A stretch of 64,000 nt of DNA from Actinomyces sp. GTDB taxonomy: Bacteria; Actinomycetota; Actinomycetes; Actinomycetales; Actinomycetaceae. The stretch's first letter is position 1; every line of letters starts with the position of its first letter. The notes beneath the pieces are model-generated. The model was not told where the DNA came from, did no database searches, and worked only from the letters and a program-made list of their open reading frames with translations. Positions 2,181 through 28,983 of the stretch are shown one piece after another. A program made the translations under genes and the position numbers. The DNA is taken from NCBI RefSeq assembly GCF_029851875.1, contig NZ_JARKVC010000006.1, positions 1 through 64,000 on the forward strand, given 5' to 3'.

Positions 2181-3677
2181 TCAGGCGCCCACGCGCTCCA
2201 TCACCAGCTCACGCACGCGCCTGGCATCAGCCTGGCCACGCGTGGCCTTCATGACGGCTCCCACGATCGCGCCCGCCGCCTGGACCTTGCCACCACGGAT
2301 CTTGTCGGCGACGTCAGGGTTGGCGGCCAGGGCCTGGTCAACGGCGGCCAGCAGCGCCGAGTCGTCAGAGACGACCTCCAGGCCGCGGGCCTCGACGACG
2401 GCCTGCGGGTCACCCTCGCCGGCCAGGACACCCTCGAGGACCTGACGCGCGAGCTTGTCGGTCAGACGGCCCTGGTCAACCAGCCTCTGAAGCTCGGCCA
2501 CCTGCTGCGCGGTGACGGCCAGGTCCTCCAGCGCGACCTCCTGCTCCTTCGCGGCACGGGAGAGCTCGCCCATCCACCACTTACGGGCCGCCTGGCCAGA
2601 GGCACCGGCCAGCGTCGTGGCCTCGATGAGCTCCAGCGCGCCGGCGTTGACGACGTCGCGCATCTCCTCATCTGCCAGGCCCCACTCCTCCTTGAGACGA
2701 CGGCGCTTGGCAGCCGGCATCTCCGGCAGCGAGGCGCGGACCTCCTCGACCCACTCCCGGCTCGGGGCCACCGGCACGAGGTCGGGCTCAGGGAAGTAGC
2801 GGTAGTCGTCCGCGTCCGACTTGACGCGGCCAGGCCTGGTGGTGCCGTCAGCCTGACCGTGACGGGTCTCCTGGAGGACCTCTCCCCCAGCCGCCAGGAT
2901 GGCGGCCTGACGCTGGATCTCGTAGCGGATGACGCCGTCGATCCCGCGGAAGGTGTTGACGTTCTTGGTCTCGGTACGCGTGCCCAACGGGGCGTCAGGA
3001 CCCGGGCGCAGGGAGACGTTGACGTCAGCGCGCACGTTGCCACGCTCCATCCGGGCCTCGGAGACGCCCAGGGCCCGGAAGACGTCGCGCAGGGTCCGCA
3101 CGTAGCTCGCCGCGACCTCGGGCGCCTTGGCGCCGGCGCCGATGATGGGCCGCGAGACGATCTCAACCAGGGGCACACCGGCACGGTTGTAGTCCACCAG
3201 CGAGTGGTCAGCGCCCTCGATACGCCCGTCGGCACCACCGACGTGGGTGTTCTTGCCGGCGTCCTCCTCCATGTGAGCGCGCTCGATCGGCACGGTGAAG
3301 AAGCTGCCGTCCTCCAGCTCGACCTCCAGGGCCCCGTCGAAGGCGATGGGCTCGTCCGACTGGGAGGTCTGGAAGTCCTTGGCCAGGTCCGGGTAGAAGT
3401 AGTTCTTGCGCGCGAAGCGGCAGGACTCGGCGATCTGGCAGCCCAGCGCCAGACCGATACGGATGGCGTACTCCACGCCCTTGGCGTTGACCACCGGCAG
3501 GGCGCCAGGCAGGCCCACCGAGGTCGGAGTCACGCGGGAGTTCGGCTCGCCGCCGAAGGCGACCGGGGCGGCGTCGAACATCTTGGTGGTGGTGCCCAGC
3601 TCGACGTGCACCTCCAGGCCGATGACCGGGTCGAAGCGGCGCACCGCCTCGTCGTAGTCCATGAGCTCGTCAGCCAT
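2181..3677 (-). CDS. gatB: Asp/Glu-tRNA(Asn/Gln) amidotransferase subunit B
   Basis: [28 protein letters not shown]; GatB/Yqey C-terminal tail. Confidence 0.97.
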
Positions 3678-3678
3678 C

Positions 3679-5214
3679 TCAGGCCTCCTTCTCGTTCAGC
3701 TCGGGGGCGCGGTCCAGCAGGTGACCGCCCCAGCTCTCCTCCAGCGCGGCCTCCAGGACGGCACCCACCCGGTACAGGCGGTCGTCAGCCCGCTGCGGGG
3801 CGAGCAGCTGGAAGCCAACCGGCAGGCCGTCGTCGCTCAGCCCGGAGGGCAGGCTCATGCCCGGGACACCGGCGAGGTTGGCCGGGATCGTGGTCACGTC
3901 CAGCTTGTACATGGCCAGCGGGTCGTCCTTCTCCCCGAAGCGGTAGGCCGTCACCGGCGCCGTGGGCGAGACCAGGACGTCGAAGCGCTCCCAGGCCGCG
4001 TCGAAGTCGCGCTGGACCAGCGTGCGCACCTTCTGGGCGCTGCCGTAGTAGGCGTCGTAGTAGCCGGCGCTGAGCACGTGGGTGCCCAGGATGACGCGGC
4101 GCTTGACCTCGTCCCCGAAACCGGCGCCACGAGTGGCAGCCATGACGGTCTCCGCCGTCACCGGGCCGGAGGAGGGCTCCACGCGCAGGCCGTAGCGCAT
4201 GCCGTCGTAGCGGGCGAGGTTGGAGGAGACCTCGGCAGGCATGATGAGGTAGTAGGCGTCCAGCGCGTACTCCAGGTGCGGCAGCGAGACGGTCTCGATG
4301 AGCGCACCGGCCTCCTCCAGCAGCGTCAGGGCGGCGTGGAAGGAGTCCAGGACGCCGCTGTGGTACCCCTCTCCCCCGTCCAGCTCGGCGATGACGCCGA
4401 CGCGCAGCCCAGACAGGTCGCGACCGGCCTGGGCTGCGCGCACGACCTCAGCCATGCCGCGCGGGACGTCAGACAACGAGGTCGAGTCCAGCGGGTCGTA
4501 GGAGGCCATGACGTCGTGCAGCAGGGCCGTGTCCAGGACGGTGCGGGCCATCGGGCCAGGGGTGTCCAGAGAGGAGGCCATGGCGATGACGCCGTAGCGA
4601 GAGACGGTTCCGTAGGTCGGTTTGACACCCACGGTGCCGGTCACGGCCGCAGGCTGGCGGATCGAGCCTCCGGTGTCCGTGCCCAGGGCCAGCGGGGCCT
4701 CGAAGGCAGCGACGGCGGCCGCCGATCCGCCCGAGGAGCCGCCCGGGATCCGGCCCAGGTCCCAGGGGTTGGCGGTGCGGTGGAAGGCCGAGTGCTCGGT
4801 CGAGCCGCCCATGGCGAACTCGTCGAGGTTGGTCTTGCCCAGGATCGGCATGTGGGCCGCGCGCAGGTTGGTCACGGCGGTGGCGTCATAAGGCGGGACC
4901 CAGCCCTGAAGGATCCTGGAGGCGGCCGTGGTGACCTGACCGCGGGTGACGAAGAGGTCCTTGACTGCCACTGGGACACCGGTCAGCTCAGGGACCTCGT
5001 GCCCCTGTCCGCGGGCCTGGGCCCGAGCGGCGTCGGCGGCGTCGGCGTCAGCCAGGGCCTTGGCGGCGTCGACGTCGAGGAAGGCGCCCACAGCGCCGTC
5101 GACGGCCTCGATACGCTCCAGGTGGGCCTGGGTGAGCTCGCGCGCGCTGAGGTCACCGCGGGCGAGGGCGGCCGCCTGCTCAGCGGCGGTGGCCTTGACG
5201 AGGGAGGTGGTCAT
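3679..5214 (-). CDS. gatA: Asp/Glu-tRNA(Asn/Gln) amidotransferase subunit A
   Basis: Amidase signature [32 protein letters not shown]. Confidence 0.97.
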
Positions 5215-26079: not shown

Positions 26080-26502
26080 CTAGAGCAGGGCGGCCAGCCC
26101 CAGGGCCACCAGTGCCAGGAGAGGCAGGGCGCCCTGCTTGGCGGCAGCGCCGCGGTGCGCCGGGGACTTGGCTGCCAGGACGAGGGCGGCAGCCAGCATC
26201 GAGGCGGTGGCGAAGGCGGCCAGCGCCACACCCGCGACAGCCGCGTAGCCGCTGCCCGCCCACACGAGGATGGCACCGAGCAGACCCTCCAGGGCGAGGA
26301 AGAGGTTGTAGAAGCCCTGGTTATAGGCGTAGAAGGCGTGTGACCGGGCCTCCTCAGGAGTGCCGCCGAAGGTCTTGCGCGCCAGCGGCCCCTCCCAGGC
26401 GATGGACTCCATGTAGAAGATGAGCACGTGCAGCGCGCTGGCGAGCACGGTCAGCACGAGACCGGCGTGAGCCAGCACGGGCGTCAGGGCAAGCTCAGTC
26501 AT
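26080..26502 (-). CDS. DUF1304 membrane protein
   Basis: MTELALTPVLAHAGLVLTVLASALHVLIFYMESIAW...TFGGTPEEARSHAFYAYNQGFYNLFLA; start at 26502, not the 26970 ORF start. Confidence 0.85.
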   Translation of the reverse strand: MTELALTPVLAHAGLVLTVLASALHVLIFYMESIAWEGPLARKTFGGTPEEARSHAFYAYNQGFYNLFLALEGLLGAILVWAGSGYAAVAGVALAAFATASMLAAALVLAAKSPAHRGAAAKQGALPLLALVALGLAALL

Positions 26503-26604
26503 GGCGCCGATCCTAGTGCGCGCTGAGGCCACCTGAAGATCCTTGACAACAAGGCGTCTCCCTGTGACGTTGCAAACGTGTGTGGAGCTGGGTACGGGCC
26601 TGGC

Positions 26605-26973
26605 GGCGTGCTTCCGCCTGGTCGCGGCGTACATATCCCTGGTTGCGGCGTACTTCCACGCACCGGGGCGTACATCCAGGCATTGACGGCGTGCAGCCGC
26701 CTGCTCGCGGCGTGCATCTACCAACAAGCGGCGTACTTCCACACACCGGGGGCGTGCTTCCACTGGCCGGAGGCGTGCCTGCGTGGTGAGGGCGTACCTG
26801 GCAACGTCTGCAGGCACGCCCTCCCAACACACACACGCCCCCACAACACAAACACACGCCCCCACCCCAGACAAGCACGCCGCCACCGGGAAGCATCTCG
26901 CCCAGACCAGGGACCACCGCCGGCAAGCACGCCCCAACCACCAAAACACGCCACCACGGCAGGCAAGCACGCC
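26605..26973. repeat. Convergent array of heptamers (GGCGTRC x10, then inverted GYACGCC x7 plus one degenerate) at about 21-bp spacing with central palindrome
   Basis: GGCGTRC starts: 26605, 26626, 26647, 26667, 26688, 26709, 26730, 26751, 26772, 26791. GYACGCC ends: 26820, 26839, 26860, 26881, (26902 degenerate), 26933, 26952, 26973. Innermost pairs share exact dyad at 26805/26806. Confidence 0.9.
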
Positions 26974-27081
26974 GCCACCGCCTGCCCGGGTTCTTATCCG
27001 TCACAGCGCGCTGCAAGGCCGACGTCGAGATCCTGAGAACCTGCACGCCCCGGAGGAGGCCCCGTAACCGCAACCGAGCGC

Positions 27082-27400
27082 ATGACCTCAGCGCTGTCTC
27101 AAGCTGTCCGCCAGAGAGCACCTTCCCCGGGCGTCCTGCTCCCCCAGGACGACCTCACCTCCGTCTCGAGGTCCCACGCAGCACGCTGCGTGAGGCGCTG
27201 GCCGTCCCGGCCTGCGAGGATGTGTGGAGCCGCGTGTGGGACAGCACGCCGCCGTCCGCTGTCGTCCACAGTCTGACGCCAGCCGAGGTCGCCGAGCTCG
27301 ACAACCTGCGTGTCGCGATCGAGCCGGCTCCGGCGACGCCCAACGTCGACCTGGCTTCCCCACGCGCTCTGGCCTCGGTGGAGGAGTCAGACCGCATACG
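27082..27400 (+). pseudogene. Remnant of GntR/FadR-family regulator
   Basis: MTSALSQAVRQ..., then after a frameshift EVPRSTLREALAV...LTPAEVAELDNLRVAIEPAPA; resembles wHTH and FCD segments with material missing. Confidence 0.5.
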
Positions 27401-27439
27401 CAGGTGGCGGGCACCCTGCTGTAGGGTGCCCGCCACCTG
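27401..27439. terminator. Strong hairpin, probable terminator
   Basis: Perfect 17-bp inverted repeat CAGGTGGCGGGCACCCT / AGGGTGCCCGCCACCTG, 5-nt loop. Confidence 0.85.
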
Positions 27440-27561
27440 CTCACGGTCCGACGGCGTTGCTGAGGCCCGCTGGATCAGGGCCTGTCACAGCCTGGTCATC
27501 TCCCGACGGCCGTCGGCGTCATCGAGGTACTCGCCCGCCACGGCCTGCGAGGGCAACCGCC

Positions 27562-28983
<1,422 letters not shown>

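Follow-up and report, generated by a model that had tools for sequence, protein, structure and literature searches.

Organization of the array locus

The window analyzed here, a stretch of 64,000 nucleotides, belongs to a 2.45-Mb draft assembly, G000, from an Actinomyces closely related to A. urogenitalis; A. urogenitalis DSM 15434 (G068) and a further genome, G008, represent its sister species. Between a DUF1304 membrane protein gene and a decayed GntR-family regulator gene, the window carries an array of phased heptamers arranged about a dyad. The features of the locus are as follows.

26080 to 26502, minus strand: DUF1304 membrane protein gene, starting at a distance of 103 bp from the first heptamer
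26600 to 26980, no strand assigned: entire array element; its likeness to the other G000 arrays ends at its edges, and the flanking genes are unrelated
26605 to 26797, plus strand: left arm of ten GGCGTRC heptamers, with outward steps from the core of 19, 21, 21, 21, 21, 21, 20, 21 and 21 bp
26791 to 26820, no strand assigned: central 30-bp core, GGCGTAC-CTGGCAACGTCTGCAG-GCACGCC, with ACGT on the dyad at 26805.5
26814 to 26902, minus strand: right arm of inverted units GCACGCC, ACACGCC, ACACGCC and GCACGCC and a degenerate fifth, with steps of 19, 21, 21 and 21 bp
26927 to 26973, minus strand: second inverted block, with units at 26927, 26946 and 26967 (steps of 19 and 21 bp)
27049 to 27462, plus strand: decayed GntR-family regulator gene, broken relative to the open GntR-like genes of the sister species
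27562 to 28983, minus strand: fumC (fumarase C), a neighbor gene

The preliminary description had named both flanking genes. The DUF1304 assignment was confirmed (PF06993, 8e-24), and the GntR gene is indeed decayed in the window, with open GntR-like counterparts at the homologous place in the two sister species (A. urogenitalis L107:2433-3056; G008 L042:2490-3254).

The left-arm heptamers, all exact, start at 26605, 26626, 26647, 26667, 26688, 26709, 26730, 26751, 26772 and 26791, and the steps reported for these ten copies (21, 21, 20, 21, 21, 21, 21, 21 and 19 bp) were reproduced at the same coordinates. The inverted units of the right arm occupy 26814-26820, 26833-26839, 26854-26860, 26875-26881 and 26896-26902, and the five mirrored pairs are all centered on 26805.5, as had been proposed. 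These inverted units had been given as GYACGCC; they are present, but the second and third read ACACGCC, with one mismatch, and the fifth is the degenerate TCTCGCC. Similarly, the second block exists with its steps of 19 and 21 bp, but its middle unit is ACACGCC rather than GYACGCC; this block recurs in similar arrays of G000. The innermost heptamers of the core are 23 bp apart, start to start, a geometry common to the other arrays of this design (type-1) examined. The layout had been called unlike that of CRISPR or REP elements, and comparison with both sets of criteria bears this out; instead of the direct repeats of approximately 21-48 bp in one orientation that define a CRISPR, the array has a 7-bp repeat, inverted halves and 12-14-bp spacers.

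A dispersed family of type-1 arrays

The array in the window is one of approximately 25 intergenic arrays of a single design dispersed through G000. Its sequence is common to arrays at several unrelated loci of that genome, and the likeness stops at the array edges. Approximately 18 such arrays are found in G008, and A. urogenitalis has a few strong type-1 arrays and several diverged ones. In G000 there are 47 instances of three heptamers in succession with 12-15-bp spacers and none of the reversed control pattern, which excludes chance as the source of the pattern. The palindromic 30-bp core of the type-1 design is GGCGTRY-N16-RYACGCC, with RACGTY on the dyad and the innermost heptamers 23 bp apart. 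Outward from the core, the first step is 19 bp, the second almost always 21 bp and the further ones mostly 21 bp, and the outermost step is often 19 bp. Each unit has TGRS-GGCGTRY-NT as its conserved block, the spacer is otherwise variable, and the arrays range in size from several to about 22 heptamers. The preliminary description was therefore right about coordinates, spacings and dyad, but overlooked the RACGTY center, the TGRS 5' extension and the multicopy nature of the element. Its suggestion of a centromere-like or terminus-like site does not hold for a single such site, which the approximately 25 copies spread through the genome rule out.

The type-1 family is narrowly distributed. A profile built from 27 arrays, with inspection of weak matches, identified nothing convincing of this type in the remaining 46 genomes of the genus. 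When 84,980 species representatives, which may leave out the window's own genome or a very near one, were scanned for the type-1 heptamer, A. urogenitalis was found twice, and the remainder were single matches in unrelated genomes that are probably due to chance. Several contig ends of G000 lie within arrays (seen at loci L025, L030, L031 and L037): contigs C33 and C34 both terminate in half an array, and the 127-bp ends of C22 and C43, likewise within an array, are identical. Because assembly contigs break inside the arrays, draft genomes will undercount them. The genes beside the arrays have no common function, and, of about 20 arrays assessed with our own gene prediction, a single one is located between divergent genes.

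Conservation and turnover at orthologous loci

For most arrays of G000, the orthologous intergenic position of G008 or A. urogenitalis is also occupied by an array, which indicates that array movement is slow. Between orthologous arrays of G000 and G008, 8.9% of heptamer sites differ compared with 29.4% of spacer sites (p=1e-14); between G000 and A. urogenitalis, 4.1% of heptamer sites and 16.4% of spacer sites have changed. The check proposed earlier, namely whether period and dyad persist while spacers diverge, was thus answered positively: the heptamers are kept and the spacers drift at orthologous loci, and the dyad geometry is fixed. Whole units have been gained and lost in the arms between orthologues, and some arms are homogenized.

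This variation in unit number and the homogenized arms would be expected if the arrays had grown as neutral tandem repeats with no trans-acting reader, or if they were a decayed coding repeat. The neutral form of this explanation is refuted by the unequal rates of heptamers and spacers, and neither growth by itself nor coding decay agrees with the fixed 19/23/19 center; furthermore, no reading frame can run through the 19-bp steps and the dyad, on which ground a coding repeat was rejected. We regard this explanation as most improbable.

One array of approximately 305 bp, at locus L027 in G000, is cleanly absent from both sister species, in which the flanks are 1 bp apart (A. urogenitalis) and 35 bp apart (G008). 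This is most simply explained by a single gain in G000. Among the criteria for a MITE, a clean empty site is therefore found for this array; at its edges, there is only an unconvincing GGCGCAC repeat near both, with no clear target duplication. Mechanisms other than mobilization, such as gene conversion or slippage, may account for the spread.

The array as a site on double-stranded DNA

A transcribed long hairpin with periodic stems had been among the roles suggested for the array, and a DNA cruciform was considered along with it. The predicted RNA fold of the window array is stable (z-score -5.6), and complementary extensions are present in some short dyads, such as the L105/L028 pair and elements from other genera; two of these extensions changed together. 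Long arrays behave differently. The variable sixth and seventh heptamer bases and the spacers of 27 inner and 48 outer pairs were compared with the arms of other arrays, and across the 27 arrays the mirrored arms exhibited no covariation: heptamers and spacers pair no better than with shuffled partners, and mismatches at the R position between mirrored heptamers are as common as chance predicts. Rfam gave only chance matches, with no family above noise. Despite its stable fold, the transcribed RNA hairpin was consequently rejected as a candidate for the window array, and hairpin or cruciform readings in general are very unlikely. Since the mirrored arms do not covary, it is double-stranded DNA rather than an RNA hairpin that appears to be read. 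Of the roles suggested earlier, a cooperative operator or nucleoprotein array with all cores on one DNA face fits best with how the site is read, because conserved heptamers are combined with drifting spacers, the geometry of the dyad is constant and the arms lack covariation.

In the two short two-unit dyads at L105:3590-3650 (A. urogenitalis) and L028:3480-3530 (G000), the palindromic extensions have changed together (GATTGT/ACAATC versus GACTGG/CCAGTC), which could reflect hairpin pairing or palindrome correction. The covariation of these few short dyads does not extend to the long arrays.

Array families with other words and their association with DUF559 genes

The same design is common to other Actinomyces, in which the words differ: GCTACCC, GGACGTAC, ACGGTTCG, GCACGACC and more. 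At the A. urogenitalis counterpart of the window locus, a diverged type-1 core lies beside a GCTACCC array with 20-bp steps and a 16-bp center as in type-1. Pairs of GCTACCC are abundant in A. urogenitalis (64 versus 0 for the control), GGACGTRC arrays are found in G017 (24 versus 1) and GGACGTGC arrays in G067 (7 versus 0), and one genome can contain several array families. The GCTACCC family is decayed at an orthologous locus of G000 and G008. Dispersed TTGGACCG arrays with 20-21-bp steps and a dyad center were also observed in unselected stretches (L199:4200-4420 and L202:5830-6000, in G029 and G066).

In both G008 and G000, a gene for a DUF559 protein, the candidate partner described below, sits between two arrays; its positions are L096, about 3185-4246 on the plus strand, and L149:1498-2595 on the minus strand, respectively. 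The flanks of its nearest paralogues across the genus were inspected without an assumed motif, and partner genes proved to be flanked, frequently on either side, by arrays with the heptamer of their own genome. GACGGTTCG arrays flank paralogues in G014, G029, G063, G066, G012 and G005; elsewhere the flanking words are GGACGTAC (G017), GAGGTCG (G019), CTCGTTC (G020) and GGGAACGTG (G036), and the G015 paralogue is flanked by a GATCTCG 20-mer. In A. urogenitalis (L137:5340-7030), a distinct DUF559-like gene of 311 aa has GCTACCC arrays with 20-bp steps on both sides; this species has retained the type-1 protein despite the divergence of several of its type-1 arrays. For many DUF559 paralogues, no array could be detected in the flanks. 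In G031, a DUF559 gene (L174:2560-2900, with L127 and L067) has beside it repeats with the words TTTGCGTC and GCACGTCC, which resemble dispersed repeats found elsewhere in that genome.

The association was quantified with a motif-free score for 19-21-bp phasing and inversion, applied also to random windows from the same genus. A score of at least 3 was reached by 25 of 44 windows flanking the closest paralogues and by 9 of 520 random windows (p=2e-24); for other DUF559 genes the count was 18 of 56 against the same random windows (p=9e-14). With a control spacing of 13-15 bp, no DUF559 flank window reached a score of 3. Several of the nine random-window matches are arrays themselves, including one in G029 that bears GCACGACC, a word whose arrays flank a DUF559 gene in G029 (both sides) and in G064 and which also occurs in an unselected stretch of G029. 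The link is specific for the word as well. Pairs of ACGGTTCG number 13-76 in each of seven of 49 genomes and one in the other 42, and six of these seven are exactly the genomes that have a partner gene flanked by ACGGTTCG (p=5e-7); the seventh is G064, where different words, or no word at all, stand beside the DUF559 genes that were inspected.

These data also bear on the idea that the arrays are host chromosome-organizing sites, recognized by an unknown reader such as a nucleoid protein or acting in a centromere-like or terminus-like manner, with the DUF559 association being secondary. Dispersed intergenic copies, phasing on one face and positional conservation would all agree with such sites. 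However, the heptamers differ between species, several families occur per genome, and the DUF559 association is both strong and heptamer specific, so that we consider chromosome-organizing sites improbable.

The candidate partner protein

The candidate partner is a protein of approximately 350 aa with an AbiEi-like middle and a C-terminal DUF559/REase_MTES_1575 (Vsr-like) nuclease domain. The Pfam MTES_1575 match (35.9 bits) is below the curated cut-off of 38.2, and the DUF559 match (24.4) is above its cut-off of 20.6. In 23 aligned proteins, E253, D284, E295, D297 and K301 are invariant; such acidic residues and a lysine would be expected in a nuclease of the PD-(D/E)XK or Vsr-like type, and the protein is thus a putative nuclease. 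The closest solved chain to this domain is the homing endonuclease I-Bth0305I (3R3P), a weak match (E=0.014). The target on which I-Bth0305I dimerizes is nearly 60 bp long (PMC3943268), and the inner two dyad pairs of the array span 68 bp. PADLOC matches to AbiEi (best E 1e-5 to 2e-10) cover mostly the central part, and Pfam AbiEi_1 is not significant; beyond AbiEi and one insignificant DpdF match, PADLOC found no defense system. NCBIfam gave no match, and there was none to a Y1 (HUH, IS200/IS605-like) transposase. Matches to DUF559/MTES_1575 are present in 46 of the 59 genomes sampled across Actinomycetales.

Both AbiEi and Rv2827c bind to tandem inverted repeats within the promoters of their own genes (PMC7319586). 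Together with the AbiEi-like matches in the middle of the partner and the purifying selection on heptamers at orthologous loci, this raises the alternative that the DUF559 protein is an AbiEi-like autoregulator whose flanking arrays are operators, that the dispersed arrays are regulatory or insulating sites beneficial to the host, and that the nuclease domain is incidental or serves defense. On the other hand, the gene often has arrays on either side, the neighboring genes have no functional theme, and arrays are rare between divergent genes, where shared promoters would be expected. There is also turnover of copy number and heptamers from one species to another, and one array has a clean empty site. 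A regulatory network of this kind is possible but, in our view, rather unlikely.

Proposed mechanism and comparison with known systems

Based on the results presented above, the array in the window is probably a non-coding member of a dispersed family and a candidate DNA target of a family-specific AbiEi-like/Vsr-like protein, in the manner of RAYT genes and REPINs. That the protein binds the arrays is what we infer from their association. The nuclease domain, and the occurrence of both genes with arrays and lone arrays, further suggest that the protein helps the arrays to spread, which is supported by the single clean empty site and by array sequences common to unrelated loci.

In this mechanism, each array would be read by its own DUF559 protein, with one heptamer per two helical turns. 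The protein would start as a dimer on the central palindrome and spread outwards along one DNA face, and the nuclease would nick or cut at or near the arrays. Repair or copying could then lead to the spread of arrays and to the gain or loss of whole 19-21-bp units. A gene with its flanking arrays would form the autonomous unit, and lone arrays, including that of the window, would be passengers, like RAYT genes and REPINs, respectively.

The REPIN/RAYT systems (REPtrons) resemble the present one in that short intergenic repeats of family-specific sequence are dispersed, the partner gene is flanked by copies, turnover is slow and several families occur per genome. In contrast, the partner here is a DUF559/Vsr-like nuclease-type protein instead of a Y1 HUH transposase, and the repeat is a phased dyad array instead of a 20-40-bp hairpin with a GTAG or CGTC tag. 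By the criteria for REP/REPIN elements, a partner flanked by repeat copies is found and the tagged hairpin is not; the array-protein system resembles a REPtron in its working but is not one, lacking both the Y1 transposase and the tagged hairpin.

BOX elements of pneumococci are likewise dispersed modular intergenic repeats with a variable number of the middle unit, like the arrays here. To our knowledge, they have no dyad center with mirrored arms, no 19-21-bp phasing and no partner nuclease gene.

With the AbiEi antitoxins of type IV toxin-antitoxin systems (AbiEi, Rv2827c), the partner shares a weak to moderate AbiEi-like match in its middle and tandem inverted repeats by its own gene, the binding of which is documented for AbiEi (PMC7319586); it differs in its C-terminal nuclease-like domain and in repeats of up to approximately 22 units that are dispersed genome-wide. 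The Vsr-like EDxHD homing endonuclease I-Bth0305I is the closest solved relative, with a target length near that of the inner dyad, but the partner gene here lies outside introns and inteins, copies of the repeat are dispersed without it, and the match itself is weak.

No homologous component ties the system to the described dispersed-repeat systems, which would set it apart as new, unless its arrays turn out to be merely the operators of an AbiEi-like regulator. In the open-licence literature, we found no description of such a protein-array system, no paper giving a role for DUF559/MTES_1575 proteins, and nothing relevant on DUF559 or MTES_1575 with repeats or on Actinomyces repeats. There is, in our judgment, about an even chance that the system represents an undescribed class of selfish chromosomal element in Actinomycetales, consisting of a Vsr-like nuclease with an AbiEi-like region and a cognate dispersing phased dyad array whose word diversifies by species together with the protein. 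If so, the REPIN/RAYT way of life would have been reached a second time by an independent route.

The link of DUF559/MTES_1575 proteins to cognate arrays gives these widespread Actinomycetales proteins a predicted target. If the link is true, the array heptamer could be read from the genome beside the gene, and many natural protein/target pairs would be available for studying how DNA recognition changes. Short two-by-two dyads with approximately 20-bp phasing were also seen beside DUF559 genes at L219, L220, L223, L226, L228 and L243, in G030 and other genera. On inspection, these dyads lie mostly outside the genus, in other Actinomycetales families, which suggests a wider distribution in this order.
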